Below are positions 2,978-55,174 of a stretch of DNA of 64,000 nt, piece by piece; position 1 is the stretch's first letter; every line of letters starts with the position of its first letter. The position numbers and the translations under genes are program-made. A model generated the notes under the pieces. The model saw nothing but the letters and a program-made list of their open reading frames with translations. It was not told the origin of the DNA and made no database searches. The DNA comes from a virus: positions 62,001-126,000 of IMG/VR virus record IMGVR_UViG_3300021197_001635; one strand, given 5' to 3'.

Positions 2978-3556
2978 ATGGATTTACCAACACTTGGGTA
3001 TTATAGAACGCACAGCAATGCGATCCCACCCAAAATGAGCACAGCGGGGGCAGCCTGCTATGACCTTTCTGCACAACTGGTTGTTGAGGACAACAGTGGC
3101 AGAGTAACCGATTATAGAGAGGTCACAATTTTCACACCAGAAAATGAGACCTACACAGAGACCGCAACCTGCAGGGTTCACCCTACCGAGAATGGAAGAT
3201 TTACACCTTTCAGGGTAACAATCCCACCTAGACACAGAGCCATCATTCCAACTGGAATCATATTCGATATTCCAGACGGTTATTCTGTCAGACTGCACCC
3301 TAGGTCTGGTCTTTCCATCAAAAAGGGATTCATCGTCGCCAATTGCGAGGGTGTCATTGACGAGGACTACTTCCATGAGATCAAATCTTTGATGGTGAAC
3401 ACAAGCGAGATTCCAATCGTAGTCGAGCATGGTGATAGAATCGTTCAGGCAGAGATTGTCAAGACGGTACAGCACTACATTGTAGAGACCCACGTTGAGC
3501 CTTGCCAGAAGACAGATAGAGTGGGTGGTCTTGGTAGCACGGGAGTTAAAGTATGA
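2978..3556 (+). CDS. dut: dUTP diphosphatase (dUTPase)
   Basis: Trimeric dUTPase family: hydrolyses dUTP to dUMP and pyrophosphate, keeping uracil out of DNA and feeding ThyX, encoded about 8 kb downstream. Conserved motifs are visible in order: motif I STAGAACYDL near residue 21, the PRSGLSIKKG uracil-binding region near 108, GVIDEDYFHE near 124, HGDRIVQAEI near 149 and the C-terminal P-loop-like GGLGSTG near 183. At 192 residues it is about 40 longer than typical bacterial enzymes because of an insertion around residues 38-70. GGAGG lies eight bases before the start. First gene of the operon, overlapping the next by four bases (ATGA). Confidence 0.93.
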   Translation: MDLPTLGYYRTHSNAIPPKMSTAGAACYDLSAQLVVEDNSGRVTDYREVTIFTPENETYTETATCRVHPTENGRFTPFRVTIPPRHRAIIPTGIIFDIPDGYSVRLHPRSGLSIKKGFIVANCEGVIDEDYFHEIKSLMVNTSEIPIVVEHGDRIVQAEIVKTVQHYIVETHVEPCQKTDRVGGLGSTGVKV

Positions 3557-3942
3557 ACAGAGATGAATTAATACAGCATCATGTAGCATTGTGTGAAGAG
3601 GCTAGATCCCTCATGAGAGTCAAGAATCATGATTATGCAGGCAAGGACACTGATACCCCTTGGATGAACTTCCAGAGATCAGAGATAATGGGTCTTTGCA
3701 AGACCGAGCAAGCATTCATGGTTAGGATTCTGGACAAGATTTCAAGACTAATCACCTACACGACTAGCGGGGAACTGATGGTCAAAGGTGAGGGTGTTAA
3801 GGACTCAATAGTCGATATAATTAATTATATGGTCTTGTTCTCAGCATTCATAGAAGACGGCAATGTGAAGGACGAAGACCCTGACGGCTCGAAAGATACT
3901 GCTATGAATTATGACAACATCGAGAGAGAATCACTCGTATGA
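3553..3942 (+). CDS. MazG-like nucleotide pyrophosphohydrolase (candidate MazZ function)
   Basis: 129-residue all-alpha protein with the pattern of the MazG/DUF1599-type phage pyrophosphohydrolases: KNHDYAGKD..PWMNFQ near residues 24-40, then an acidic Mg-binding pair of helices with DKISRL near 60 and KDSIVDIINYM near 84. The family cleaves (d)NTPs to (d)NMP and pyrophosphate; in diaminopurine phages a MazG-like enzyme (MazZ) makes dGMP for PurZ. Substrate here is not readable from sequence; the role is inferred from the PurZ homologue at 53547. ATGA overlaps on both sides couple it to dUTPase and polymerase. Confidence 0.8.
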   Translation: MNRDELIQHHVALCEEARSLMRVKNHDYAGKDTDTPWMNFQRSEIMGLCKTEQAFMVRILDKISRLITYTTSGELMVKGEGVKDSIVDIINYMVLFSAFIEDGNVKDEDPDGSKDTAMNYDNIERESLV

Positions 3943-6461
3943 AAGAAATGTACTCCAATGTGGTTACCTATGGTAACACCCTGATGTACAGAGGATACGA
4001 CTCGGAAGGAAATAAAGTCGAGGATAGGGCGGAGTTTAATCCAGTCCTATATGTTCCTAGCAGCAAAGGCAAGGAATTCAAGACTCTGGAAGGCTCCCCT
4101 CTTGAAGAGATTGAGATGGGATGCATCAAGGAATATAGAGACTTTATCAAGCAATATGATGGTGTTGCTGGCATGACAGTATACGGGGATATTAATCTAG
4201 AGTGCCAGTACATAGGCAGAAGGTTCACCGACAAGAAGGTGGACTACGATTATGACCTGCTCAACGTGGTTAGCATCGATATTGAAACCACCTGCGAGTA
4301 CGGATTCCCCGATGTGGAGAACCCAAATGAAGAAGTTATTGCTATCACTATTCGGATTAATGATCAAACTTATAGTTACGGTCTGGGTGATTTCGACATT
4401 GATGGTGTTCATTGTCATCCTTATGCTAGGGATGAAGAGTTAGACCTAATCAATGATTTTCTGGGCAAGTGGGAAGAGATTTCACCAGACATCATCACTG
4501 GTTGGAATATCAGATTCTTCGATATGCCTTATCTTTATAACAGGATCAAGAAGATAGCAGGTCCCAAGCAGGCTAAGAGACTTAGTCCTTGGAAGATAGT
4601 CAAAGAGAAGACCATCCACAGACGAAATCGGGAGCAGAAGGTGTTGGATATTGTGGGTATTGCCACAATGGACTATTATGATCTATACCAGACTTTCACA
4701 TACACCAATCAAGAAAGCTACAGATTGGATCATATAGCATATGTGGAATTGGGTGAGCGGAAGTTGTCCTACTCAGAATTCGGCAGCATCAGAGAATTCT
4801 ATAAGAAGGATTTTCAGAAGTTCATGGAGTACAACGTGATAGACGTGGTACTGGTGGACAGACTGGAAGAGAAGTTGCGACTGATGGAACTAGCCGTCGC
4901 CTTGGCATATGCTGCAAAGGTCAATTTCATGGATGTCTTCAGTCAGGTGAAGATGTGGGACAGCATCATCTACCATCATCTTCATGATAAGAAAATAGCG
5001 GTTCCACCTAGAGTTGTAACCCAGAAGTCAGAGCAGTATGCTGGTGCTTATGTGAAAGACCCTATCGTGGGTATGCATGATTGGATCATGTCTTTCGACC
5101 TCAATTCCCTGTACCCCCATCTGATCATGCAGTATAATATCAGTCCAGAGACCAAGGTACACAATATTGATAACATTCATGCTAGGGATATTATTACACC
5201 CAATGGCATCTTGGACTGTTCTGAGCAGACCGAAAAATACCTAGAAGAATGGAGGAGAAGGGATCTGTCTATTGCTAGCAATGGGATCACCTTCACCAGA
5301 GACTTCCAAGGGTTCCTACCATCGATTATGGAAACGCTCTATGAAGAGAGGAAAATCGCTAAGAAGAAGATGATTCAAGCACAGCAAAAGCAGCAATCAT
5401 CCGACGACCCTCAGATCGCCAGAGATATATCCAAATACAAGAACGAGCAGCTGGTGAGAAAAGTGCAATTGAACTCCGCATATGGTGCTATTGGAAATCA
5501 ATACTGCCGATATTACGATGTGGATATGGCAGAGGCAGTCACAATATCTGGTCAACTTAGCATCAGGTGGATTGAGAGAGAATTGAATGCTCTTATGAAT
5601 AAGATATTGGGAACTGACGACGAGGACTACGTGGTCGCCATTGATACCGACTCTGTTTATATCAATGTGGGTGATCTAGTGAAGAAGATCGGTGGAGGTA
5701 AGAGCAAGCAAGAAGTGGTCGATCTATTGGATCAGTCTGCCAATGATATATTCTTACCTTTCATCGACAAAAAGTATATGGAGATGGCATCTAAAGTCAA
5801 TGCTTATCAGCAAAAGATGAAGATGGGGAGAGAGGTAATAGCAGATAAAGGAATCTGGACTGCTAAGAAGAGATATATCCTCAACGTCATAGACAATGAG
5901 GGCGTTAGATATGATAAGGCTAAGATCAAAGTGGTTGGACTGGAAACCACAAGGTCTTCTACCCCAGAGGCAGTCAGGAACCAGTTGAAAAGCATGATAA
6001 GACTTATATTGGATACTGATGAGGGCACGGTCATTAGAGAGATCGAGAAGGTGAGGGAGATATTTTATGATCTTGAACCCGAGCAAATAGCCTTCCCCAG
6101 AGGGGTGAAAGGACTTGGTAAGTATTCTGATGAAAACAATATATTTGCCAAGCACACCCCCGTCGCAGTCAAGGGTTCCCTCATTTACAATCATTACATA
6201 AATAAATTGGGTCTGGACAAGAAGTATGAGCTAATCAGGGACAATGATAAGGCGAAGTTCATATACCTTAAGGAGCCTAATCCAGTGAGAGACAAAGTTA
6301 TCACCTTTCCTAATGAATTACCAAAGGAATTAGAATTGGATGATTACATCAATTATGAATTACAGTTTGAGAAGTCTTTCCTAGATCCCTTAAAGGCTAT
6401 TTTAGAGGCTATTGGGTGGAAGTCAAGGAAAGAGAGTTCACTAGAAGGTTTGTTTGTTTGA
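3939..6461 (+). CDS. 43: Family B DNA polymerase, T4 gp43-like
   Basis: 840 residues, near the usual T4/cyanophage gp43 length. Exonuclease motifs are intact: Exo I SIDIETT (D114/E116), Exo II GWNIRFFDMPYL near 189, Exo III YNVIDVVLVD near 300. Polymerase motifs: motif A FDLNSLYPHLI near 386, motif B KVQLNSAYGAIGNQY near 508, motif C IDTDSVY near 568. Both proofreading and synthesis should therefore be active. It would be the replicative enzyme; if the phage makes dZTP, this family B enzyme would have to accept it, unlike the family A DpoZ polymerases described for Z-DNA siphoviruses. Start overlaps the MazG-like stop. Confidence 0.97.
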   Translation: MKEMYSNVVTYGNTLMYRGYDSEGNKVEDRAEFNPVLYVPSSKGKEFKTLEGSPLEEIEMGCIKEYRDFIKQYDGVAGMTVYGDINLECQYIGRRFTDKKVDYDYDLLNVVSIDIETTCEYGFPDVENPNEEVIAITIRINDQTYSYGLGDFDIDGVHCHPYARDEELDLINDFLGKWEEISPDIITGWNIRFFDMPYLYNRIKKIAGPKQAKRLSPWKIVKEKTIHRRNREQKVLDIVGIATMDYYDLYQTFTYTNQESYRLDHIAYVELGERKLSYSEFGSIREFYKKDFQKFMEYNVIDVVLVDRLEEKLRLMELAVALAYAAKVNFMDVFSQVKMWDSIIYHHLHDKKIAVPPRVVTQKSEQYAGAYVKDPIVGMHDWIMSFDLNSLYPHLIMQYNISPETKVHNIDNIHARDIITPNGILDCSEQTEKYLEEWRRRDLSIASNGITFTRDFQGFLPSIMETLYEERKIAKKKMIQAQQKQQSSDDPQIARDISKYKNEQLVRKVQLNSAYGAIGNQYCRYYDVDMAEAVTISGQLSIRWIERELNALMNKILGTDDEDYVVAIDTDSVYINVGDLVKKIGGGKSKQEVVDLLDQSANDIFLPFIDKKYMEMASKVNAYQQKMKMGREVIADKGIWTAKKRYILNVIDNEGVRYDKAKIKVVGLETTRSSTPEAVRNQLKSMIRLILDTDEGTVIREIEKVREIFYDLEPEQIAFPRGVKGLGKYSDENNIFAKHTPVAVKGSLIYNHYINKLGLDKKYELIRDNDKAKFIYLKEPNPVRDKVITFPNELPKELELDDYINYELQFEKSFLDPLKAILEAIGWKSRKESSLEGLFV

Positions 6462-6479: not shown

Positions 6480-7541
6480 ATGACAGGATTTCTTGAATCG
6501 ATTATTAAAGATTCTGGCAACGAGTATGCCAGCATTGTGGAAGGTGGGGTTGAAGGTAGTGATGTCACTGGTTTCATCAACACTGGTAGTTACGCGTTAA
6601 ATGCACTTCTATCTGGAGATATTTATCAGGGGATGCCAGATAATAAGATTATCGCTTTGGCAGGAGAGAGTGCGACAGGTAAGACCTATTTCGCATTGGA
6701 TATCTGCAAGAAATTCCTTACTGACAAAGAAGATGGGATTGTCTTGTATTTTGATACAGAGCAGGCGATCACTTCAGACATGATTAAGGATAGGGGCATT
6801 GACTCTTCTAGAGTCGCCATATTCCCAGTTGCAACGGTAGAAGATTTCAGACACCAGTGCATTAAGATCGTGGATAAAGTTCTTGAGCTGCCTAAGGAAG
6901 AGCGAAAACCCATGATCATCGTTCTCGATTCTCTTGGCATGTTGTCTACCAACAAAGAGATGGCAGATACGGCAGAAGGCAAAGAGACCAGAGATATGAC
7001 ACGTGCACAACTGGTCAAGGCTACCTTCAGGGTATTGACCCTTAAACTGGGAAGAGCACACATTCCTCTGATCTTGACCAACCATACCTATGATGTGGTG
7101 GGTTCTTATATTCCTATGAAAGAGATGGGTGGTGGTTCTGGTCTCAAGTACGCAGCATCCACAATCGTGTATCTGTCCAAGAAGAAGATTAAAGACGGAA
7201 CAGACATTATAGGCAATATTATCAGATGCAAGTTGTTTAAAAGCAGACTGACCAAGGAAAACAAGCAGGTTGAAGTCCAACTAAGCTACGACTCGGGTCT
7301 CAACCCTTATTATGGTCTTTCTGATCTGGCGATTAAGTATGACATATTCAAGAAGGTAAGCACTAGAATCGAATTGCCCGATGGAAGAAAAGTCTATGAG
7401 AAGCAGTTAAACGCCGACCCAGAAAAATATTATACAGAAGATATCCTCGACAGGATAAACGAGGCCGCTTCCAAAGAATTCAAATATGGAGGATCATCAG
7501 ATGGGGAACTGCAAGAAGTGCGAGAAGAAGAGGATGAGTGA
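6480..7541 (+). CDS. uvsX: UvsX-like RecA family recombinase
   Basis: 353 residues, typical of T4 UvsX. Walker [17 protein letters not shown] near residues 59-74; Walker B-like [11 protein letters not shown] near 143; the L2-type region [13 protein letters not shown] and [11 protein letters not shown] follow. It binds single-stranded DNA with ATP and drives strand exchange for recombination-dependent replication and repair, probably with gp32 (62077) and helicase gp41. Start preceded by a GAGAGG site; it follows polymerase by 18 bases in the same transcript. Confidence 0.95.
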
Positions 7542-7704: not shown

Positions 7705-8020
7705 ACAAGACCCACCCAAGTATAAGTACGCAGACTACCCCAGAGATAGTAAATGGGGTGCGTTAAGGATATTGGATGGGGAGTACGAGGGTATCATCTT
7801 CAAATTCGGAGTAGTTAGTCTGTCTGACGATGATGATCACTGCTCAGTTAATTTCACCTATGATGTGCTTAAAAATCCTAACTATCTGTCAGAAGACGAT
7901 AGCATGAGGTCTGTCATGGGTGAGATATTGGTTGAAATATTGAAGAAGAACTACGGTGGAGAATATGATGACAATGATGACCACGGAAATGCTGATTCTG
8001 TCCAATCTGGTGCAGAATGA
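7685..8020 (+). CDS. Hypothetical replication-cluster protein
   Basis: 111 residues, acidic, with a central beta-rich part (ILDGEYEGIIFKFGVVSL) and an Asp-rich C-terminus. No catalytic motif is seen. Overlaps the previous gene by 20 bases and the helicase gene by about 56. Its position between uvsX and gp41 suggests a replication accessory role, but that is inference from context only. Confidence 0.62.
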   Translation: MKIFRNKQDPPKYKYADYPRDSKWGALRILDGEYEGIIFKFGVVSLSDDDDHCSVNFTYDVLKNPNYLSEDDSMRSVMGEILVEILKKNYGGEYDDNDDHGNADSVQSGAE

Positions 8021-9365
8021 TAGGTATATGAGGAAGGCACTGCCATTCCTCAAGGAAGACTATTTCTCAGACAGGGTAGAAAGAAAAGTGTTCACCCTGA
8101 TTTCGGATTTTGCAGCAAAGTACAACCAGCCTCCCAATAAGGACGCACTAGGTATTTGCCTAGACAATGCTAGCGGTCTTAGTGAATCAGAGTTCAAGGA
8201 TGCCAGAAGCATTGTAAGAGACATCACCAATAAGGTGGATGACTCCCAAGAAGACCAATGGTTGCTGGACACCACAGAGTCTTTTTGTAAAGACAAGTCC
8301 ATATACAATGCAATCCTAGAATCTATACAGATAATCGATGGTAAGTCTGATATGAGCAAGAATCACCTGCCCAGTCTCTTGCAAGATGCTCTATCTGTAT
8401 CATTCGATGTCTCTGTTGGTCACGACTATATAGAAGACTCCGAGCAGAGGTACGATTTCTACCATAAGAAAGAGAATAAGATTCCTTTCGATCTGGAATT
8501 TTTCAACAGGATCACCAATAGCGGAACTCCGCAGAAGACTCTCAATATATGTCTAGCTGGTACTGGTGTCGGAAAGTCCTTGTTTATGTGTCATCATTCT
8601 GCTAATTGCCTGACTCAGGGTAAAAATGTTCTCTATATCACATGTGAAATGGCAGAAGAGAGGATCGCAGAGAGAATCGATGCCAATCTGATGAATATTA
8701 CGATGGATGAGCTGAAAGACCTACCCAAGAATGTGTATGATAAGAAGATTGAGTCTGTGACGAGTGGCATCTCTGGTAAGTTGATCATCAAAGAATATCC
8801 AACTGCGACCGCAAATGTCAATCACTTTAGATCTCTGCTTGAAGAATTGAAGATGAAGAAGAATTTCGTTCCCGATATCATATTCATTGATTATCTCAAT
8901 ATTTGTGCTGCTGCCAGATTTAAGAATGCTGCAAACGTCAACTCCTACATGTATATCAAGGCGATAGCGGAGGAGCTAAGAGGACTTGCCGTGGAGCAAA
9001 ACGTCCCTATCTTTTCTGCCACCCAGACCAATAGGAGCGGTTTCGCTAATACCGATGTGGGTCTGGAAGACACCTCAGAATCATTCGGACTGCCAGCAAC
9101 AGCAGATTTCATGTTTGCCATAATATCCACAGATGAACTAGATAGTATGAATCAAGTATTGGTAAAGCAGTTGAAGAACAGGTATAATGATACAGCGGTA
9201 AACAAGAAGTTCATAGTGGGCATAAACAGGGCTAAAATGAAGCTATATGATGTGAGTAACAAAGAACAGGACGACCTTGTAGATTCTGGTCAGTCTACAT
9301 ATAGTAGAGATGATCTTAATAGTAAGATCAAACAGGATGGTGTTTTTTCTGATTGGAAAATTTAG
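7965..9365 (+). CDS. 41: Replicative DNA helicase, DnaB/T4 gp41-like
   Basis: About 466 residues. Walker A CLAGTGVGKSLFMCHH near residue 196; Walker B IIFIDYLN near 302; an arginine/glutamine-rich switch TQTNRSG near 350; C-terminal KNRYND and GINRAKMKLY strands complete the RecA-like DnaB C-domain. It unwinds the fork 5' to 3' on the lagging strand and recruits primase (9525). The frame begins earlier at a GTG (7956), but GGAGAAT just before the ATG cluster at 7965/7968/7974 favours one of these; the exact start is uncertain. Confidence 0.93.
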   Translation: MMTMMTTEMLILSNLVQNDRYMRKALPFLKEDYFSDRVERKVFTLISDFAAKYNQPPNKDALGICLDNASGLSESEFKDARSIVRDITNKVDDSQEDQWLLDTTESFCKDKSIYNAILESIQIIDGKSDMSKNHLPSLLQDALSVSFDVSVGHDYIEDSEQRYDFYHKKENKIPFDLEFFNRITNSGTPQKTLNICLAGTGVGKSLFMCHHSANCLTQGKNVLYITCEMAEERIAERIDANLMNITMDELKDLPKNVYDKKIESVTSGISGKLIIKEYPTATANVNHFRSLLEELKMKKNFVPDIIFIDYLNICAAARFKNAANVNSYMYIKAIAEELRGLAVEQNVPIFSATQTNRSGFANTDVGLEDTSESFGLPATADFMFAIISTDELDSMNQVLVKQLKNRYNDTAVNKKFIVGINRAKMKLYDVSNKEQDDLVDSGQSTYSRDDLNSKIKQDGVFSDWKI

Positions 9366-9379
9366 ATTGGGGAAATGCG

Positions 9380-9544
9380 ATGAATAATAGAGAATTGAAA
9401 GAATGGAAAAGATGGGCTGAAGAGTACGAAGCGGATCGACTGCAAAAGAAGGTCGATATTTCGGAGAAATTCTCCAAGTCCGTTGGTAATGAAGACATTA
9501 ATAATGATAGTGATGAAGTGAAAAATGAGCATAATAATAGATAA
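9380..9544 (+). CDS. Small hypothetical charged protein
   Basis: 54 residues from ATG 9380, which has GGGGA seven bases upstream. Highly charged and predicted helical (RELKEWKRWAEEYEADRLQKK), with Asn/Asp/Glu at the C-terminus. It sits between helicase and primase genes and overlaps the primase start by 20 bases. No family recognised. Confidence 0.6.
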   Translation: MNNRELKEWKRWAEEYEADRLQKKVDISEKFSKSVGNEDINNDSDEVKNEHNNR

Positions 9545-10586
9545 GAAGTTTATCAATCTGGTATCACCAGAATTGCGTAATTTCAAATGGAAAAAAGAAA
9601 AGCTTGCCAACTGTTCTTGCCCAATATGCGGTGATAGTAAAAAGAACAGTAGGAAGGCTAGAGGTTATTTCTACGAGAAGCATGGACGATTCTTTTATAA
9701 ATGTCACAACTGTGACTTTTGGTGTAACATATATAGTTTTTTGAAAGAGATTTCTCCTGCACTTTGCAAAGAATACGCAATGGAGGGGTATAGAGAAAGA
9801 ATATCTCAGGGATTTATAAAAGAGAGGGTGAGGGTAGAACCAGAAGAGATGAAGTTTAATTTCAAGAAGCCTAAGAAGACTGTAATCAACAAGGATATGT
9901 TGAAGGATTGCGTTTGTCTAAACGATCTACCCGATGATCATGAGGCAGTCCAATTTGCCAATATCAGAATAATTCCCAAGCAACACTGGAACATCTTGTA
10001 TTATACAGAAGACTTTGGTGCTCTAATGAAGCACATGGATCCTGATTGCCTGAGTGTAGGAAGAGAGTCTAGACTGGTAATACCATTCTTCAACAAGAAG
10101 GGAGATGTGGTAGCAGTTCAGGGAAGATCCTTGAAAATGCAGGATGAATCTAATGCACGCAAGACCGTAAAATACTTAACAGTCAAGTCTGATAAGAGCA
10201 TAGACAGACTATGGTATGGACTTTGGAGGTGTGACACCAATAAGAAAGTGCACGTCGTTGAAGGTCCACTTGACAGTTTGTTCCTCAGCAATTCAGTCGC
10301 CATGGTTGGTGCGGGTGCTGTTGATAACATACCAGATAGGCTGGTTGACAAAGATTTGATTTTTGTGCTAGATAATGAACCAAGAAACAAGCAAATTGTT
10401 CAGTATAATCAGAATTTAATAGATCAAGGTAAGAAGGTGTGCATCTGGCCTAAGACGATCGTAGAGAAAGATATCAATGATATGGCATACAAGATGTCTA
10501 CGAGAAAAATTGAAAAAATCATTAACGAAAATTCTTTTAGTGGGTTGCAAGCGATAGCGAGACTCAGGGAATGGAGAAGAGCATGA
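9525..10586 (+). CDS. 61: DNA primase, T4 gp61-like
   Basis: 353 residues. N-terminal zinc-binding domain with CSCPICGDS near residue 31 and CHNCDFWC near 61, then a TOPRIM-type catalytic part: VVEGPLDSLFLSNS near 245 and IFVLDNEPRN near 284. It synthesises RNA primers on the lagging strand together with gp41 encoded just upstream. The length and order match cyanophage/T4 primases. It overlaps the glutamine synthetase start by four bases (ATGA). Confidence 0.92.
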   Translation: MSIIIDKKFINLVSPELRNFKWKKEKLANCSCPICGDSKKNSRKARGYFYEKHGRFFYKCHNCDFWCNIYSFLKEISPALCKEYAMEGYRERISQGFIKERVRVEPEEMKFNFKKPKKTVINKDMLKDCVCLNDLPDDHEAVQFANIRIIPKQHWNILYYTEDFGALMKHMDPDCLSVGRESRLVIPFFNKKGDVVAVQGRSLKMQDESNARKTVKYLTVKSDKSIDRLWYGLWRCDTNKKVHVVEGPLDSLFLSNSVAMVGAGAVDNIPDRLVDKDLIFVLDNEPRNKQIVQYNQNLIDQGKKVCIWPKTIVEKDINDMAYKMSTRKIEKIINENSFSGLQAIARLREWRRA

Positions 10587-11647
10587 GAACTAATTGTAAG
10601 ATGGAATACCTGTGGTTGGATGGATATGAGACACCCAACATCAGAAGCAAGACCCGATACATGACCTTGGAATCTGATGACGAATCTATGACAGTTGAAG
10701 ACATTCCAGAGTGGGGATTTGACGGTTCCAGCACTGAACAGGCATCTGGCAGCGATAGTGATTGCATCCTCAGACCAGTATCAGTATTCTTGAACCCTGT
10801 GGACTCGACATCTTTCCCCAATTCTTATCTGGTATTGTGTGAGGTGTTCAACAAAGATGGCACACCCCATGCATCCAATCACAGATCTTCTCTCAGAGAG
10901 ATTTGTGAGGGTACAGATGATTTAGAAATGTGGATGGGTATTGAGCAAGAATATACAGTGATGGATTCTGAAAAGGGTAGACCGTATGGGTGGCCTGATA
11001 TGGGTTATCCCCAGCCCCAAGGGCGATATTACTGCGGAGTTGGTGGTGATGTAGTTAAGATGAGAGATCTCGCCCATCAACATGCCATGTGTTGTCTGGA
11101 CTCAAAAATACCATTATGTGGAACCAATGCTGAGGTTATGCTATCTCAATGGGAATATCAGATAGGACCAGCATCCCCAATCAATGTATGCGATTTCTTA
11201 TGGGTGTCAAGATACATACTGGAGATTCTAGCAGAGAGTGTGGGTGCATCAATCAGTCTTGACCCTAAGTTAATCAAGGGTGATTGGAACGGGTCTGGAG
11301 CACACATCAACTTCTCCACCAAATTCATGAGAGAAGTTGGAGGCAAGGATTACATCAACGACGTCTGTGAGAGCCTAGGCAAGGCACACGAGGACCACAT
11401 CGTTAATTATGGTGTTGGCAACGAACAGAGACTCACTGGTACTCATGAGACCCAACATATCAATGAATTCACTTATGGGGAGTCCGACAGAGGTGCTAGT
11501 ATTAGGATCCCTCACTCTACTTCGGAAGAATACAGGGGATACCTAGAAGACAGAAGACCAGCATCCAATATGGACCCATACAAGGCAACAAAATGCTTGG
11601 TAGAAACGATGAAGAAGGTAGATTCTAAGGTAGAAATTGAAGTATGA
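10583..11647 (+). CDS. glnA: Glutamine synthetase, type II (eukaryote-like GSII)
   Basis: 354 residues, the length of GSII and much shorter than bacterial GSI. Hallmarks: EWGFDGSST near residue 46, metal-binding GIEQEYTV near 118, GRYYCGVGG near 142, QWEYQIGP near 187, GDWNGSGAHINFSTKFMR near 234 and TGTHET near 284. It makes glutamine from glutamate, ammonia and ATP in the cytoplasm. Start 10583 overlaps the primase stop and has GGAG nine bases upstream; the ATG at 10571 lacks a usable site. In this gene set glutamine would feed purine synthesis, including the GMP synthetase step that adds the 2-amino group. A rare phage metabolic gene. Confidence 0.94.
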   Translation: MRTNCKMEYLWLDGYETPNIRSKTRYMTLESDDESMTVEDIPEWGFDGSSTEQASGSDSDCILRPVSVFLNPVDSTSFPNSYLVLCEVFNKDGTPHASNHRSSLREICEGTDDLEMWMGIEQEYTVMDSEKGRPYGWPDMGYPQPQGRYYCGVGGDVVKMRDLAHQHAMCCLDSKIPLCGTNAEVMLSQWEYQIGPASPINVCDFLWVSRYILEILAESVGASISLDPKLIKGDWNGSGAHINFSTKFMREVGGKDYINDVCESLGKAHEDHIVNYGVGNEQRLTGTHETQHINEFTYGESDRGASIRIPHSTSEEYRGYLEDRRPASNMDPYKATKCLVETMKKVDSKVEIEV

Positions 11648-12393
11648 ATGTGCTAGATCATGGTCATGTTGAGTTGGTAGACCACATGGGGTCTGATCTG
11701 ACAGTATGTAACTCCGCCAGAGTATCCTTCGCCAAGGAGACCGAATGGGAGGTCGACAAAGAGGCAGAAGATAGATTGAGAAAATCTGGTTCAAAGTATA
11801 GAGAATCTGATGTTGAAAAGTTATCTACTAAAGACGAACATTTAATCAGATACCTAGCAGAGCACGATCATTGGACCCCCTTTGCACATCCACAAGTCAC
11901 CTTAAGGATCAAGGCCCCAGTATCAATAAGGACACAGTTCTTCAAGCACAAGCAAGGTTTTGTTGAAAATGAGATATCGAGGAGATACGTGGACGAAACA
12001 CCTGAATTCTATCACCCCAACTGGAGGAAAAGACCTTCTAAGGGGATGAAGCAGGGTAGTGACGGCACTCTAGAATGTTCAGGTGGAGGAGATACCTCTG
12101 GGGGGTTTGCCACACACCCTTTGTATCGAAACTACAGCAGTCTGATGAAACAGGCAGAGTGTCTATATGAAGAACTGATTTCTGCAAACGTAGCACCAGA
12201 ACAAGCAAGATTCGCACTGCCTCAATCAATGTATACTGAGTGGTACTGGACTGGATCTTTGTCAGCATATGGAAGATTTTATAAACTTAGGATCGACGCC
12301 CATGCACAATGGGAGATTCAGCAGTATGCTGATGCTATAGGTAAACTTATTAGACCTCTATTCCCAGTGTCTTGGAAATATTTGGTATCATAG
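11644..12393 (+). CDS. thyX: Flavin-dependent thymidylate synthase ThyX
   Basis: 249 residues. Converts dUMP to dTMP using FAD, NADPH and methylene-folate. The signature region is FFKHKQGFVENEISRRYVDE near residues 99-118, a variant of the RHRx7S motif with Lys in place of both Arg; NExSRRY is intact. HWTPFAHPQ near 78 and the C-terminal LRIDAHAQWEIQQYA are also family features. It works downstream of the dUTPase at 2978. ATGA overlap with glutamine synthetase. Confidence 0.93.
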   Translation: MNVLDHGHVELVDHMGSDLTVCNSARVSFAKETEWEVDKEAEDRLRKSGSKYRESDVEKLSTKDEHLIRYLAEHDHWTPFAHPQVTLRIKAPVSIRTQFFKHKQGFVENEISRRYVDETPEFYHPNWRKRPSKGMKQGSDGTLECSGGGDTSGGFATHPLYRNYSSLMKQAECLYEELISANVAPEQARFALPQSMYTEWYWTGSLSAYGRFYKLRIDAHAQWEIQQYADAIGKLIRPLFPVSWKYLVS

Positions 12394-13070: not shown

Positions 13071-15008
13071 ATGATTGAGTTGCCGACACCCTACCAACAG
13101 TTCATCCATCTATCTAGATATAGTAGATGGTTAGATGAAGAAGGAAGAAGAGAGACTTGGAATGAGACTGTTAGTAGATATATGGGGTTCTTCAAGGAGC
13201 ACTTGGAGAAGACTCTGGGTTATAAGATGAGCGTAAATACCGAAAATACGGTTAAAAATGCTGTCCTCAATCTTGAAGTTATGCCCTCAATGCGATGTCT
13301 AATGACTGCTGGTGATGCATTAAAGAAAGATGCGGTTGCAGGATATAACTGTTCTTATCTGGCAATCAATAGAGTCAGAGCATTTGATGAAGTTCTTTAC
13401 GCCCTGATGTGTGGCACTGGTGTCGGTTTTTCTGTGGAGAGAGAGTATGTATCTAAACTACCCACTATTGCAGAAGAATTTGAAGAATCAGATTCTACTA
13501 TTGTTGTTCAAGATTCAAGAATTGGTTGGTGTAAGGCTTACAGGGAGCTTGTCTCCCTACTTATTACAGGTCGTGTACCAAGATGGGACCTGTCACGTGT
13601 GCGTCCTAGTGGGTCGAGACTTAAGACTTTCGGAGGAAGAAGTTCAGGACCAGAAAGTCTGGAAGATCTATTTAGATTCACGGTGGAAGTCTTTAAGAAA
13701 GCATCTGGCAGAAAACTCACGACTATTGAGTGTCACGATCTCGTATGCAAGATTGCAGAAATTGTAGTGGTTGGTGGTGTGAGACGTTCCGCACTCCTTA
13801 GCCTTTCATCCTTGACAGATGAGAGAATGAGAGATGCCAAGCAGGGACAATGGTGGGTGATTGAACCACAACGTGCATTATCCAACAATTCGGTATGTTA
13901 TAAGGAAAAGCCTGAGATTGGGACCTTCATAGAGGAGTGGTTGGCACTCTACAAGTCCAAATCAGGTGAAAGGGGCATCTTTAATAGAGACTCTGCCAAG
14001 ACCACGGTGTCTAAAATCCAAGGTGGAAGAAGAGATCCCGATCATGACTTCGGTACTAATCCTTGCTCCGAGATTATACTTAGAGACAGAGAATTCTGTA
14101 ATTTGTCAGAAGTGGTTGCAAGAGGAGATGACACGGTAGAGACTCTTAAGGAGAAGGTAAGACTTGCGGCAATCATAGGCACATGGCAGTCTACATTAAC
14201 CGACTTTAGGTATCTATCGGCAGAATGGAAGAAGAATTGTGAAGAGGAAAGACTCTTGGGTGTTTCTATCACGGGAATCATGGATTCTGTTCTTCTTAAT
14301 GGAGACAAGAAAACACTTGCTGCATTGCCTGGGCTACTAGAAGAATTAAGAGATATTGCAGTTAAGACCAATAAGGAGTGGGCATCTAGACTAGGTATCA
14401 ATCCCTCTGCTGCTATCACCTGTGTTAAGCCTTCTGGTACTGTTTCTCAGTTGGTGGATTCTGCATCTGGTATTCATGCTAGACATAATCCATACTATAT
14501 TAGAACTGTGCGTGCTAACGTTAAGGACCCGTTATGCAAATTCATGCAGGACAAGGGGTTCCCTTGTGAACCCTGCCACATGAAGCCTGATACAACCATG
14601 GTGTTCTCATTCCCAGTAGAGTCTCCCAAAAAGGCAATATTCAGACAGGATAAATCAGCCATCGAGCAGTTAGACTTATGGTTATTGTACCAAAAGCACT
14701 GGTGTGAACACAAGCCTTCTATCACGGTTTCGGTCATGGAGGGAGAATGGTTGGACGTTGGCACTTGGGTCTATAATAATTTCGACGATGTATGTGGGGT
14801 ATCATTCCTGCCATTTAGCGATCACTCATATAAGCAAGCACCTTATCAGGACTGTTCCAAAGAAGAATACAAGGTCTTGCTTAAGGAAATGCCCAAGGAT
14901 ATTGATTGGGATGAATTGTGTGCATACGAGAAGGAAGATAACACGGCTGGCAGCCAGACGCTAGCATGCTCTGGGACGTCATGCGAGGTGGTTGACCTGA
15001 CCCCATAA
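13071..15008 (+). CDS. nrdJ: Adenosylcobalamin-dependent (class II, monomeric) ribonucleotide reductase
   Basis: 645 residues, single-chain class II type as in Lactobacillus RTPR and cyanophages, which reduces ribonucleoside triphosphates. Visible: substrate-binding PSMRCLMTAG near residue 64, GTGVGFSVER near 115, the radical-site loop NPCSEIILRD near 330, PSGTVSQLVDSASGIH near 457 and a redox-active C-terminal tail ACSGTSCEVVD. It needs host or imported B12. It would supply all dNTPs, including dGTP, at the triphosphate level, which fits a downstream dGTP-to-dGMP MazG step. It ends the replication operon. Confidence 0.94.
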   Translation: MIELPTPYQQFIHLSRYSRWLDEEGRRETWNETVSRYMGFFKEHLEKTLGYKMSVNTENTVKNAVLNLEVMPSMRCLMTAGDALKKDAVAGYNCSYLAINRVRAFDEVLYALMCGTGVGFSVEREYVSKLPTIAEEFEESDSTIVVQDSRIGWCKAYRELVSLLITGRVPRWDLSRVRPSGSRLKTFGGRSSGPESLEDLFRFTVEVFKKASGRKLTTIECHDLVCKIAEIVVVGGVRRSALLSLSSLTDERMRDAKQGQWWVIEPQRALSNNSVCYKEKPEIGTFIEEWLALYKSKSGERGIFNRDSAKTTVSKIQGGRRDPDHDFGTNPCSEIILRDREFCNLSEVVARGDDTVETLKEKVRLAAIIGTWQSTLTDFRYLSAEWKKNCEEERLLGVSITGIMDSVLLNGDKKTLAALPGLLEELRDIAVKTNKEWASRLGINPSAAITCVKPSGTVSQLVDSASGIHARHNPYYIRTVRANVKDPLCKFMQDKGFPCEPCHMKPDTTMVFSFPVESPKKAIFRQDKSAIEQLDLWLLYQKHWCEHKPSITVSVMEGEWLDVGTWVYNNFDDVCGVSFLPFSDHSYKQAPYQDCSKEEYKVLLKEMPKDIDWDELCAYEKEDNTAGSQTLACSGTSCEVVDLTP

Positions 15009-15348: not shown

Positions 15349-16518
15349 ATGAATATTTCAAAGAAAAAGTGGATGATGTACGGTGGTATTGCCGCTGCTA
15401 TTCTAATCGCTTCGGTCGCGGTTGCTGATGGACCTTCATATGAAGACCTTCAGGCCCGTCTAGACGCAGCAGAGGCAAAGATCGCACAGATTGATTCCGA
15501 CCGTGCTCCAAGCTGGTTGGAAAGCAGACGTAGTGAAGAAGTTCAATCGCTAGTGCAAGATGTCCTTGCCGATGCAGAAGCACGAACGATGATGCAGGGA
15601 GACAATTCCCCAGTCACCGTTAATCTTCATGGATTTGCCATCACCCGTTGGGATTACAACAATGGTGGTGGTGTGGCAAGAAATAATGAATTCAGCATTC
15701 CATATGCTCGACTTGAAGTCTCAGGAGAGATCCTAGGCAAGGTTGGGTACTATGTCAGTGGTGAATTCAGTGACTACACGAATGGCAGCATGGATCTTGT
15801 CGACGCCTACCTCACAATGGATGTGGGTCTGGGAGTGGACATGATGGCTGGTCAGTTCGTGACTGCATTCTACCGAGGTTTCACTGATTCACCATTGGAT
15901 CAGATCGCGGGAGAGTACAGTATTCTTGCTACCACTTTTGGTCAAGGACGATCGCAGGGCCTTCAATTCACCAAAGATTTTGGTTGGTTGGATCTCTCTG
16001 CCTCTTATAACGACGGTTTCGACACCAGCAATTCATTCATGATGGACAATGACTATGGTGTCAGTGTTCGTGGTGATGTGGATTTTGGTGCTGGATTCCG
16101 TGCAGGTGCAGCCTATGCTTATCAGTCAGAACTTGAAGACTACGGTACTTACACCGTGGACTTCGGATATTCTACCGATAAGCTAGATGCACAGGTCTCA
16201 TGGGTTTCTGCCGACTATGCTGTCGGTGGATACAGTGACAACTATGGCTTCAACGCTAGTGTTGCTTATCGTTGTGCTGCCGACTTTACTGGTTTTGTTA
16301 ATTATCAATGGGGCAAGCTAGGAGTTGCTTCAGAAGATCTTAACGTGCTAGAAATCGGTGCTAACTACGATATCAACGAATACGTTCGTTGGACCACCAC
16401 CTTGGGTTATGCATTTGATGCTGTAGCCCCAGAGTGGAATACCGCTCGTTCTGGATGGAACAGCGGTTCGGAGAATGGTCAGTATCTACTGCGTACACAA
16501 CTCAGTGTAAGCTTCTGA
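15349..16518 (+). CDS. Outer-membrane porin (OprP/planctomycete porin-like)
   Basis: 389 residues. Signal peptide MNISKKKWMMYGG...IASVAVA with cleavage before D27; a short coiled coil YEDLQARLDAAEAKIAQID follows, then SRRSEEVQSLVQDVLADAEA (residues 59-78), which resembles the RxxEIxxLVxDVLADA segment of planctomycete porins. The rest alternates aromatic/Gly beta strands (HGFAITRWDY, GYYVSGEFSDYT, ASVAYRC) and ends in Phe, as barrel proteins do. It probably forms a channel in the host outer membrane, perhaps for phosphate or other nutrients, or masks a receptor. CGT arginine codons and GC content differ from the AGA-rich neighbours, suggesting host origin or high expression. Confidence 0.85.
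   Translation: MNISKKKWMMYGGIAAAILIASVAVADGPSYEDLQARLDAAEAKIAQIDSDRAPSWLESRRSEEVQSLVQDVLADAEARTMMQGDNSPVTVNLHGFAITRWDYNNGGGVARNNEFSIPYARLEVSGEILGKVGYYVSGEFSDYTNGSMDLVDAYLTMDVGLGVDMMAGQFVTAFYRGFTDSPLDQIAGEYSILATTFGQGRSQGLQFTKDFGWLDLSASYNDGFDTSNSFMMDNDYGVSVRGDVDFGAGFRAGAAYAYQSELEDYGTYTVDFGYSTDKLDAQVSWVSADYAVGGYSDNYGFNASVAYRCAADFTGFVNYQWGKLGVASEDLNVLEIGANYDINEYVRWTTTLGYAFDAVAPEWNTARSGWNSGSENGQYLLRTQLSVSF

Positions 16519-22192: not shown

Positions 22193-22215
<23 letters not shown>
21934..22215 (+). CDS. Hypothetical protein upstream of IMP dehydrogenase
   Basis: 93 residues from ATG 21934 (GAGGAAG upstream). Starts with alternating strands (KNKIVLEITLESEAYVDEF) and contains CPIDMMKMIAGQCRLP. 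Overlaps the IMP dehydrogenase start by 23 bases, so the two are translated together. No family recognised. Confidence 0.62.
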
Positions 22216-24296
<2,081 letters not shown>

Positions 24297-35601: not shown

Positions 35602-36810
35602 ATGAAATCATATAAGCAATTCATCAACGAAGGTAAGAACACTCACCTAGAGCATCTAGAAGATGAACTCTGGAACGAGGGTTCCGCAGGCGTAGAGAAC
35701 GCACTACGTTTCGTGGGTGAGGTTGCTTCTATGTTATCTGGTAATGCTGATTCTTCTATTAATATCACCACTAAATGGGATGGTGCACCTGCTATTTTCT
35801 GTGGTATCAACCCTGAAAACGGCAAATTCTTTGTTGGTACTAAGAGTGTGTTCAATACTGGTCAGCCTAAGATCAACTACACCAATGCAGATATCAACAA
35901 GAATCATGGTGGGGGATTGGCAGAAAAACTGAAGATAGCACTCAAACATCTACCTTCATTAGGTATTAAAGGTGTCCTTCAGGGAGACCTGATGTTCACA
36001 TCCAGTGATCTAAGCAGCATGAAGGTAGACGGGAAATCCCATGTCACCTTCACACCCAACACTATCACCTATGCTATCCCAGAAGGGTCGGATGCTGCCA
36101 AAGAGGTTAAGTCCGCTAAAATGGGTATAGTATTCCACACCAAATATTCTGGAAGGAAGATGTCAGACATGAAGGCATCATTCAACCCCAAGGTGAAATC
36201 TCTCAGGAAAAACAAGGCTGTTTGGTTCAGGGATGCCGATTTCAAAGACGAAAGTGGTAGTTCCACTCTAACATCCAGTGAAAAGGATGTTATAATGTCT
36301 AAAGTGAAGGATGCTAAATCCCTACTGTCCAGTACATCTAAGACAATAGAGTCCTTCAGATCCAACAGGCAGATAATACCTTTCGTCAAGATATACATGA
36401 ATAGTATGGTAAAAGAAGGCAGCACCGTAGGCAATACTGACGGTCTCATTAGTCACATATCTGCTAAGTTCGATAATGACATAAATAAATTGAAGACAGA
36501 CGCTGCTAAAGAAAGAAAGAATGCTATAAGAGAAGAGATAGTCAAATACCTCAGATCAGAAGAGGCTAGGCTAGATAAAATATTTAAATTGCATTCTGTT
36601 CTTACCGATATCAAAATAATGCTGGTAAGAAAATTGGAGAGGATTAAGGGTATAGGAACCTTTATTAGAGATGATAAAGGTTTCAGGGCTACGTCTCCAG
36701 AAGGATTTGTGGCAGTAGATAGGATTTCCAATAAGGCACTTAAACTGGTCGATAGACTAGAATTCAGCAGGTCTAATTTTACGGTTGCTAAAAACTGGGT
36801 AAAGGGATAA
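35602..36810 (+). CDS. CTS-bearing nucleotidyltransferase/ligase-like protein (KxDG motif)
   Basis: 402 residues. Leader MKSYKQFINEGKNTHLEHLE with INE/G site. ITTKWDGAPAIFCG (K58, D60, G61) is a ligase/capping-type motif I; GVLQGDLMF near 124 and SPEGFVAVD near 372 fit motifs III and IV, with a terminal Lys in FTVAKNW near 396. It matches a conserved cyanophage family of ligase-like proteins (DUF6267-like). It could adenylate and join nucleic acids, possibly repairing DNA just after injection. Catalysis is inferred from motifs only. Confidence 0.75.
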   Translation: MKSYKQFINEGKNTHLEHLEDELWNEGSAGVENALRFVGEVASMLSGNADSSINITTKWDGAPAIFCGINPENGKFFVGTKSVFNTGQPKINYTNADINKNHGGGLAEKLKIALKHLPSLGIKGVLQGDLMFTSSDLSSMKVDGKSHVTFTPNTITYAIPEGSDAAKEVKSAKMGIVFHTKYSGRKMSDMKASFNPKVKSLRKNKAVWFRDADFKDESGSSTLTSSEKDVIMSKVKDAKSLLSSTSKTIESFRSNRQIIPFVKIYMNSMVKEGSTVGNTDGLISHISAKFDNDINKLKTDAAKERKNAIREEIVKYLRSEEARLDKIFKLHSVLTDIKIMLVRKLERIKGIGTFIRDDKGFRATSPEGFVAVDRISNKALKLVDRLEFSRSNFTVAKNWVKG

Positions 36811-36815
36811 AAAAA

Positions 36816-37883
36816 ATGAGCGATAAAACATTATCTGAGGCAATAAGACAAGACTTAATGTCTAACATATTCGAGGCTAAAATGTCGTCTTCGGCGAGTG
36901 ACCCGACTGGAAATACCTCTAGTTTCTCAGGCGGCATAGCAGCATTGTCCCAAGATGTTGAATCTGGGGGTAGTCCGATCACCCCTGCATACACTAGGAT
37001 GGCATTGGATAGAGCAGCGGCTAAGAGTATGAATCCCCTATACAGGTCTATGATGAACTGGTTAAGGAGAACATCCAAGAAGAGGGACGACGAAGAAATG
37101 GGAATGAGGAGAGAATCTGCCGAGATCTATGAGAATCTAGGTTATTCTAATCCATACTCCATGAAACAACCACAGAAACCCGAGGATGACTCAGATATGC
37201 AAGAGATTCCTATGTGGGATTCTTTGACTGGCAGGAAGAAGAAATTCAAGGCTATAATGACTCCTCCCCAAGATGATGCTCTCAGAAGTTCTAGAGAAAT
37301 AAATCAAGACATGAGAGACGGATATATGCAAGCAGCAGCAGCCCAAAGAATAACACAACCTTCTGGTGGTTCTGATCCCAGAGGATTCGAGGTTCCTTAT
37401 GGATTCCGCATACCAGTGGGTGCAAATAAAGACGAATTGGACTTTGGTATGAGTTATCATGAGTATGAGACGAGGAAGAAAGAACATGATCAAAACCCCA
37501 CCAACATGAACAGTGCATATGCTGACCATCCAGCGGTAATGAAGCATCTGGACCAACAGAAGCAGCTCCAGCAAGTCCAGCAGGCAGACCAAATGAATGC
37601 TCAGGGTGGTGAAGAGCAACAACAGCCTGGTGGAATGCCTGGAATGGGTGCTGGTGGAGACCAAATGCAGCAGATGATGCAGCAAATGATGGGTGGTATG
37701 CAAGGTGGTGGACAGCCCCAGATGCCTCCTATGGGTGGGATGGGCAAAAAGCCCCAGATGCCTCCTATGGGTGGGATGGGCAAAAAGCCCCAGATGCCTC
37801 CTATGGGCAAAAAAGACGACACGGCGCAAGACATCATGAAACTACTCAGAGGTATGGGTGGTAGAGACAAGAGAAGAAGATAA
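36816..37883 (+). CDS. Prohead core/scaffold-like protein with tandem Met-Pro-Gly repeats
   Basis: 355 residues. N-terminal amphipathic helix (SEAIRQDLMSNIFEAKM) with IFE/A cleavage site near residue 20. Central helical region, Gln-rich segment (DQQKQLQQVQQADQ), then Gly/Met-rich C-terminus with three QMPPMGGMGKK repeats encoded by 36-bp units. Composition resembles scaffolding proteins degraded on maturation. Family not firmly recognised. Confidence 0.6.
   Translation: MSDKTLSEAIRQDLMSNIFEAKMSSSASDPTGNTSSFSGGIAALSQDVESGGSPITPAYTRMALDRAAAKSMNPLYRSMMNWLRRTSKKRDDEEMGMRRESAEIYENLGYSNPYSMKQPQKPEDDSDMQEIPMWDSLTGRKKKFKAIMTPPQDDALRSSREINQDMRDGYMQAAAAQRITQPSGGSDPRGFEVPYGFRIPVGANKDELDFGMSYHEYETRKKEHDQNPTNMNSAYADHPAVMKHLDQQKQLQQVQQADQMNAQGGEEQQQPGGMPGMGAGGDQMQQMMQQMMGGMQGGGQPQMPPMGGMGKKPQMPPMGGMGKKPQMPPMGKKDDTAQDIMKLLRGMGGRDKRRR
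37716..37811 (+). repeat. 36-bp tandem repeat, about 2.7 copies
   Basis: Unit starts CCCCAGATGCCTCCTATGGG and ends GGCAAAAAG; copies at 37716, 37752 and a partial at 37788. In frame, encoding the Met-Pro-Gly repeats of the scaffold-like protein. Confidence 0.92.
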
Positions 37884-37906: not shown

Positions 37907-38026
37907 ATGGACGGATTTTTAGGAACTATTTGGTGGTCGGTACTCATGTTCGTAGCAGGAGCACTAATTGGAACTCCTCTTTGGGGATGGGTTAAGAGTT
38001 TCATGCCTTGGAACAATAAGGACTGA
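37907..38026 (+). CDS. 39-residue membrane protein
   Basis: Short gene with AAAGGAGAA eight bases upstream. A single hydrophobic helix WWSVLMFVAGALIGTPLWGWV followed by a short Trp/Lys tail. It begins 23 bases after the scaffold-like gene and ends two bases before the next. Too short to assign; small-holin or assembly-factor roles are only possibilities. Confidence 0.6.
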   Translation: MDGFLGTIWWSVLMFVAGALIGTPLWGWVKSFMPWNNKD

Positions 38027-38027
38027 T

Positions 38028-53546: not shown

Positions 53547-54620
53547 ATGATTGAATCTGGTAAAGTGAATTTTCTAATCGATGGTCAGTGGGGAAGCACT
53601 GGCAAGGGCAAACTTGCTGGTTACATGTACAGCAAGCATGACAACCTGAGAATGGCAATTAGCGATAATATGCCAAATGCGGGTCACACCTTCACAAGAG
53701 ACGGCAAGAATTTCATCTTCAAGGCACTTCCCACTGGTGTTCTTTTCGATAATGTGACGTCGCTCATCGGTCCACAAGCAGTAATGGGCGAAGAACAGTT
53801 CCAATACGAGATGGAAATGGTGAAAAACGAAATCGGTCATTACCCCAAGGTAATTATCCACCCGATGGCGACGGTTGTCACCGCCAGTGACAAAGATGCT
53901 GAGGCAGGAATCGTCAGCAAGATGGCAAGCACTGGTCAGGGATCATGTTCTGCTACAGTTAAGAAGATGTGGAGACGAGGAGAGGCAAATCTTGCCAAGA
54001 ACAGCAAGGTATTCGGAGAGTACGTAGGAGATACGCACAATTTCTTGCATATGGGACTTAAGAAAGGTGATGCAGCACTTTCAGAAGGCAGTCAAGGTTT
54101 TGATCTTTCTATGAACTGCGGACACGCCTATCCACACACCACATCACGCGATTGCCTGATCGGCAGAATGATGGACAATGCTGGTTGTCCAGTTAAATCA
54201 GTGGGCAGCATCATCGCTTGTCTGAGGACACTGCCAATCCGAGTGGGTAGCACTGAGAACACCAGTGGTCCTTATTATGATGATCAGAACGAGATAGACT
54301 GGAAGATGGTATCTGAAATGTGCGGTCAAGACGTAGAAGAGAGAACCACAGTCACCCAGAGAGTGCGTAGGGTCTTCACCTTCTCCGAAGAGCAGACCAG
54401 AAAATTCTGCGAGTATGTACGTCCAGACTATGCATTCCTGAACTTCGTCAATTATTACAAGGACGAGCAGGAGAGAACGTCAGCAGTAGAATCTGTTGCC
54501 TCCATCTTGACAGAGTATGGTTGTGATCTTACACTGCTTGGGACAGGTGCAGAACTGGAGGATATGGTAGTCACCGATAATGAAACCATCCTCAACAAGC
54601 AGGAAACCTTATTCGCATGA
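53547..54620 (+). CDS. purZ: PurZ-like N6-succino-2-amino-dAMP synthetase (PurA homologue)
   Basis: 357 residues, shorter than bacterial PurA (about 430) and the length reported for phage PurZ. The adenylosuccinate-synthetase frame is clear: GQWGSTGKGK (13-22), NAGHT (44-48), STGQG (128-132), EGSQGFDLSMNCG (180-192), LPIRVGSTENTSGPY (229-243). In PurA the first motif is GDEGKGK with a catalytic Asp; here Asp is Ser17 and Glu is Thr18, the change reported for PurZ enzymes, which condense dGMP with aspartate. The GTP-specifying TKLD is also replaced (FLNFVNYY), fitting use of ATP/dATP. AGGAG lies ten bases upstream; ATGA coupling to a kinase gene. A PurZ0-like intermediate is an alternative. 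Confidence 0.87.
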   Translation: MIESGKVNFLIDGQWGSTGKGKLAGYMYSKHDNLRMAISDNMPNAGHTFTRDGKNFIFKALPTGVLFDNVTSLIGPQAVMGEEQFQYEMEMVKNEIGHYPKVIIHPMATVVTASDKDAEAGIVSKMASTGQGSCSATVKKMWRRGEANLAKNSKVFGEYVGDTHNFLHMGLKKGDAALSEGSQGFDLSMNCGHAYPHTTSRDCLIGRMMDNAGCPVKSVGSIIACLRTLPIRVGSTENTSGPYYDDQNEIDWKMVSEMCGQDVEERTTVTQRVRRVFTFSEEQTRKFCEYVRPDYAFLNFVNYYKDEQERTSAVESVASILTEYGCDLTLLGTGAELEDMVVTDNETILNKQETLFA

Positions 54621-55174
54621 TAATTAACTGTGTAATAGGTCAGGCTGGAAGTGGAAAATCTACCTTCATAGGACAGAAATTCCCTAGGGACCAGTACATT
54701 TTCTTTGATGTGGGTGACATCCTGAGAGGGATGTTTACCTGCTTCAAGGGCAATCAGGGCAATAAGAATGTCTGGAGCTTTGCTAACCCGTTGGTGTATA
54801 GCATTATGAAGAAGTGCGTCAGCATCTCTTCTAAGACCAATTACCCAGTTGTATTTGATGGATTTCCCAGAAATTCCACTCAAGTCAGGCATCTCCACCG
54901 ATACCTTACCTCCCCTAGATTGGGGAAGGTGGAGGTGCTGGTTCATTGTTTAGACATAAATATGGATGAGCAAATGTCCAGAATTGAGAAACGGAATGGT
55001 GGTCTAGACGAATATCAGATCAAGAGGATCAAGCAGTCTAGGAACGATTTTGAGGGTGTCATAGAAGAAGTAGAGAAACTGATGCTAGACTCCCGAAACC
55101 ATCCAGTATCCTATAAATGCATGTGGTACAAACAGGTAGATGATGGATTCACACTAGAACAACCTAGGAGATAG
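54617..55174 (+). CDS. Adenylate-kinase-like nucleoside monophosphate kinase (candidate dZMP kinase)
   Basis: 185 residues. P-loop GQAGSGKST (8-16), NMP-binding DVGDILRG (31-38), the adenylate-kinase signature VVFDGFPRNSTQ (78-89), and Arg-rich lid residues (MSRIEKRNGG, YQIKRIKQSRNDF near 130). It should phosphorylate a nucleoside monophosphate. The start codon overlaps the purZ stop, so both are made together; the simplest role is dZMP (or dGMP/dAMP) kinase after PurZ and host PurB. Published Z pathways rely on host kinases, so a dedicated phage kinase here would be new. Confidence 0.78.
   Translation: MIINCVIGQAGSGKSTFIGQKFPRDQYIFFDVGDILRGMFTCFKGNQGNKNVWSFANPLVYSIMKKCVSISSKTNYPVVFDGFPRNSTQVRHLHRYLTSPRLGKVEVLVHCLDINMDEQMSRIEKRNGGLDEYQIKRIKQSRNDFEGVIEEVEKLMLDSRNHPVSYKCMWYKQVDDGFTLEQPRR

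Follow-up and report, generated by a model that had tools for sequence, protein, structure and literature searches.

Viral type II glutamine synthetases were noted as abundant in the GOS ocean data in 2007, where the account given of them places them near eukaryotes and mimivirus (PMC1821046), whereas the enzymes of T4-like phages described here form a clade among bacterial sequences. Glutamine synthetase has also been reported on viral contigs from the Ross Ice Shelf (PMC10721903) and in jumbo phages (PMC13037316); the passages that report it state neither the type of enzyme nor a replication-gene context. The known bacterial GlnII enzymes, that of Streptomyces coelicolor (4bax) and the type II enzymes (GSII) of Fidelibacterota/Marinimicrobia, have the same fold, length and catalytic residues as the phage protein at 52–55% identity. 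The phage GSIIs differ from them in forming a separate clade and in lying in a phage operon, and the clade reads MLSQWEYQ where the solved cellular GSIIs that we compared read MPxQWEFQ.

A second group of described systems is the Z-DNA phages (S-2L, phiVC8, and Arthrobacter and Gordonia phages; PMC8342488, PMC12884076). Their PurZ carries Ser in place of Asp13 of PurA, as found here, and this Ser is present in all 147 phage PurZ sequences of one study (PMC12884076). In those phages PurZ is accompanied by DatZ/MazZ or DutZ/DmtZ partners and by DpoZ or PrimPol, whereas the phage analyzed here has a T4-like family B polymerase, its own PurB and IMP dehydrogenase (IMPDH), and GSII. Glutamine, PurB and IMPDH are not mentioned in the 2026 Z-phage study (PMC12884076). 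Our literature search found no T4-like GSII clade, no placement of GSII among replication genes, no glutaredoxin-like fusion and no GSII together with the PurZ, PurB and IMPDH set.

An intact GSII gene in a T4-like replication operon

The window, a stretch of 64,000 nucleotides, belongs to a virus contig of 136,012 bp. The two ends of this record match each other over 148 bp, apart from 2 mismatches; it therefore forms a closed circle with an essentially complete set of genes. Replication and structural genes of T4-like type are spread along the whole record, and the closest deposited phages to the window DNA polymerase are marine T4-like cyanophages (48–49% identity). GSII is thus a host-type metabolic gene in a bona fide viral genome, that is, a viral auxiliary metabolic gene. 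The genes around it (window coordinates) are as follows.

2978..3556, + strand: dUTPase (phrog_135, Pfam)
3939..6461, + strand: T4-like family B DNA polymerase (phrog_262)
6480..7541, + strand: UvsX recombinase (phrog_97)
7956..9365, + strand: replicative helicase, DnaB-like (phrog_19)
9525..10586, + strand: DNA primase, T4-type (phrog_47, E 6e-67)
10583..11647, + strand: type II glutamine synthetase, 354 aa (Pfam, PDB, NCBIfam, active-site mapping, AlphaFold/Foldseek)
11644..12393, + strand: ThyX, flavin-dependent thymidylate synthase (Pfam Thy1, E 4.5e-46)
13071..15008, + strand: class II (adenosylcobalamin) ribonucleotide reductase (phrog_367, E 1e-186; TIGR02505, E 1e-91)

The genes run in this order, with a methyltransferase-like ORF between ThyX and the ribonucleotide reductase. 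The original prediction had placed a GSII between primase and ThyX in a replication operon, and both the gene and its neighbors hold up: Pfam, PDB, NCBIfam and fold matches agree on the enzyme, phrog_47 identifies the gene upstream and Thy1 the gene downstream. The primase stop overlaps the GSII start as ATGA, the GSII stop overlaps the ThyX start in the same way, and GGAG lies 6–7 nt 5' of the GSII ATG at 10583, so that translational coupling is likely. The full ORF (10571-11647, + strand) encodes 358 aa, and its second in-frame ATG, at 10583, gives the 354-aa protein. Both starts are kept in same-position homologs (MEKxMN in several relatives), and MEK is conserved ahead of ATG 10583 because the ribosome-binding site GGAG falls there. 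A scan for a glutamine riboswitch (glnA RNA) ahead of GSII gave no match above the Rfam gathering threshold anywhere in the window, and promoter and terminator scans gave nothing beyond chance level.

Both Pfam domains, Gln-synt_N and Gln-synt_C, exceed their cut-offs. A PDB search retrieved type II enzymes to E 4e-101 and type I enzymes at E 1e-5, the top relatives being Streptomyces GlnII and the yeast and mammalian GSIIs (E ~1e-101 to 1e-98). GlnII was the best NCBIfam family at 403 bits (GlnA, 47 bits), yet this is below the 500-bit equivalog cut-off, which serves to name cellular equivalogs and does not describe a biochemical feature; the score marks the phage protein as a divergent GSII. 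It combines a beta-grasp N domain with a GS catalytic domain within the ~340–370 aa of the family, and is nearer to GSII than to GSI or GSIII. The AlphaFold monomer model, for which 18 phage GSIIs were aligned as input, reached pLDDT 89.2 and pTM 0.91; in Foldseek its best PDB match was S. coelicolor GlnII 4bax (TM 0.92), followed by maize and human GSII.

Loss of active-site residues had been named beforehand as what would speak against the prediction. Alignment showed the opposite: residues identical to those of dog, yeast and Streptomyces GSII occupy 15/15 checked positions, which are known from GS structures to bind metal, ATP, glutamate and ammonium, and the catalytic columns are invariant among 29 aligned phage GSIIs. 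No NLYDL adenylylation motif occurs in the window GSII. By sequence and predicted fold, then, this is an intact gene for a type II glutamine synthetase that is apparently catalytically competent.

A GSII-fold protein could instead ligate another amine or acid, giving a different gamma-glutamyl product or modifying DNA or protein, as phage amidoligases may do. The structure library's annotated viral proteins include nothing comparable to the GSII model, and the only named relatives, all distant, are GS-like amidoligases; in addition, GSII adjoins a DNA-methylase-like gene in many relatives. However, the full catalytic set is intact, including the Asp, Tyr and Glu of the ammonium site, and the protein matches true GSII at 403 bits as against 20 bits for the gamma-glutamylputrescine synthetase model. 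We therefore regard such an activity as very improbable.

Elsewhere in the window, a single 731-aa ORF (37968-40163) joins nucleotidyltransferase-like, RimK ATP-grasp and zinc-protease-like domains. Many successive ORFs between 27320 and 42140 encode otherwise different proteins that all start with nearly the same leader, MKSFKQ(F/Y), which may be a common tag for targeting or packaging.

Distribution and ancestry of phage GSII

GSII had been predicted to be rare in phages, and among 50,697 deposited phage records only 4 carry it (tblastn), all of them huge uncultured phages of 635–735 kb, although IMG/VR has relatives on at least 231 stretches. A T4-like polymerase homologous over most of its length is present in 2,260 deposited phages. 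In T4-like phages GSII occupies at least 4 places, usually among replication genes: between primase and ThyX, as here; in the order gp47, gp46, methyltransferase, GSII, exonuclease, clamp; between polymerase B and UvsX; and among other genes. Among the 73 distinct viral GSIIs of full length, 24 (e.g. L033:9617-11110) have an N-terminal CGWC domain ahead of the enzyme and in frame with it. The domain has weak glutaredoxin/thioredoxin matches and a predicted order of beta-alpha-beta-alpha-beta-beta-alpha. Its fusion to GSII suggests redox control or targeting; our literature search returned no earlier report of a glutaredoxin-GSII fusion.

We placed these proteins in a tree of 91 proteins with SH-aLRT support. 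The GSIIs of T4-like phages group together as a single clade (SH-aLRT 97), unmixed with cellular GSIIs, and the window protein lies within a ten-member primase-locus clade (SH-aLRT 99). The T4-like clade falls among bacterial GSIIs, apart from dog and yeast, and is remote from every sampled cellular GSII, which argues against a recent donor; huge-phage GSIIs branch in other places. Among the few phyla sampled, the highest-scoring cellular GSIIs were those of Fidelibacterota/Marinimicrobia (50–55% identity), where 35 of 100 sampled genomes have GSII. Recent capture from a host is rejected by the separate phage clade, and a eukaryotic donor by its position inside bacterial GSII. The planctomycete or eukaryotic source that had been named as a candidate thus finds no support in this tree, whose cellular sequences come from groups other than planctomycetes. 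In eight close pairs of relatives' GSIIs (relatives, not the window gene) dN/dS was 0.03–0.19, and the gene is under purifying selection in these relatives. Taken together, the sequences indicate that GSII has long been part of an entire group of uncultured T4-like phages.

A phage-encoded outer-membrane porin (Porin_O_P) at window 15349-16518 shares 97% identity with its counterpart in record G048 and 32–42% with those in other relatives. A porin search for the host, run without a positive control, gave no match in 15 genomes, mostly Marinimicrobia.

The distribution also bears on whether GSII is nitrogen-assimilation cargo, a means of raising ammonia capture in the whole cell to the benefit of protein and DNA synthesis alike, which would lie among replication genes only because it is expressed early. 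Glutamine synthetase on viral contigs has been read as an auxiliary gene in this way in earlier reports (PMC10721903, PMC13037316, PMC11944383), and GSII lies away from replication genes in L109/G065 and in huge phages. Against this, most T4-like members have GSII in replication modules, and at several different sites, whereas no other nitrogen-assimilation gene was recognized beside it. We consider this explanation very unlikely.

Purine genes and the Z base

The original prediction had linked GSII to Z synthesis, through glutamine for purine rings and for the GMP synthetase step that adds the 2-amino group. The genome does contain purine genes that fit such a link.

53547..54620, + strand (window): PurZ, 2-aminoadenylosuccinate synthetase (phrog_1211, E 8e-63; NF038379 best NCBIfam, below cut-off)
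54617..55174, + strand (window): nucleotide-kinase-like protein beside PurZ (weak Pfam ADK/AAA matches)
22193..23290, + strand (window): IMP dehydrogenase, 365 aa (Pfam IMPDH, E 5e-125; TIGR01302 best NCBIfam)
23238..24296, + strand (window): adenosine deaminase (Pfam A_deaminase, E 7e-92; NF006850 above cut-off)
35846-37306 of the record, outside the window (= L050:16847-18307): PurB, adenylosuccinate lyase, between gp47 and gp46

The PurZ motif reads DGQWGSTGKGK, with the Ser that distinguishes Z-phage PurZ at the position of Asp13. PurB is also present in G048 and G051 and is absent from the gp47-gp46 junction in G002 and G032. All 3 long PurZ-bearing records (G000, G048 and G051) have PurZ, PurB, IMPDH and GSII together. 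IMPDH, which adjoins adenosine deaminase, is 98% identical in G048, GSII only 65%, which points to recent exchange.

The presence of PurZ, PurB and IMPDH with GSII speaks in favor of a gene kept specifically to feed the host GMP synthetase, the 2-amino group then being retained in Z by PurZ and PurB; IMPDH and PurZ, moreover, both drive purines via GMP. The three PurZ genomes are closely related, however, and their agreement is not independent. The 123-kb record G032 has GSII and lacks PurZ, PurB and IMPDH, although it spans the gp32-AAA interval and the gp47-gp46 junction, which are the PurZ and PurB sites of Z-type relatives. GSII likewise occurs in dozens of other records with no PurZ match: among the other GSII records tested (47 + 22, most of them fragments), only two huge-phage contigs matched the family, and in them the copy next to GSII belongs to the PurA type. 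Conversely, PurZ matches were found in 202 deposited phages (tblastn), of which at most four, all huge-phage records, could carry GSII. The presence of GSII in G032 without the Z module, together with these 202 phages, shows that GSII does not depend on that module, and retention for Z specifically is distinctly unlikely.

The absence of PurZ from G002 and G058 was discarded as evidence, since both contigs end at the PurZ position. PurA near GSII in the huge phage G063 was considered as an independent link to Z and rejected, as this copy keeps the PurA aspartate (GDEGKG). At L107:5992-11835 (huge phage, 494 kb), GSII is followed 3.5 kb on by a PurA-type adenylosuccinate synthetase with the catalytic Asp.

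GSII in the T4-like group is probably older than the Z module and, on the distribution of the two, was not acquired for the Z base, which this phage may also make. The predicted Z role thus stands insofar as PurZ, PurB, IMPDH and adenosine deaminase are in the genome, and finds no support as the specific reason for GSII. A motif search of the phage ORFs detected neither a class I glutamine amidotransferase nor a PP-loop motif, which would leave any GMP synthetase step to the host. A T4-like Z phage with most of its own IMP-to-Z route (IMPDH, PurZ, PurB), its own GSII feeding host GMP synthetase, and Z production dependent on phage-made glutamine is conceivable, and seems to us unlikely.

A probable glutamine supply for phage nucleotide synthesis

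We favor as probable that the phage runs its own supply of glutamine to sustain nucleotide synthesis as a whole, from which the making of Z could benefit too. As part of the replication and nucleotide operon, GSII would be made along with primase and ThyX; during infection it would use ATP to join ammonia to glutamate of the host and so keep up the glutamine pool. Host amidotransferases would spend this glutamine on purine rings, GMP, CTP and carbamoyl phosphate, and the phage ribonucleotide reductase and ThyX would turn the products into dNTPs. Many bacteria switch off type I glutamine synthetase through an adenylylation loop, which GSII does not have, and the phage enzyme could therefore escape this kind of regulation. 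In members that carry PurZ, glutamine from the enzyme could also serve the formation of GMP and, through GMP, that of Z; this would be a further use rather than the reason for the gene. The enzyme's activity and timing, its by-pass of regulation and the destination of its glutamine are what we infer here; as the motif search detected no phage-encoded glutamine consumer, it is gene position alone that ties GSII to nucleotide synthesis.

If Z-DNA is made by this phage, it would be a T4-like case with a family B polymerase, of a kind so far described mainly in phages with DpoZ or PrimPol. More generally, our results suggest that glutamine supply has long been under phage control in this T4-like group and that selection has maintained this trait; the gene is physically linked to those for replication and is no sporadic acquisition from a host. 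They also make it testable that nitrogen donors, and not dNTP reduction alone, may limit phage DNA synthesis.
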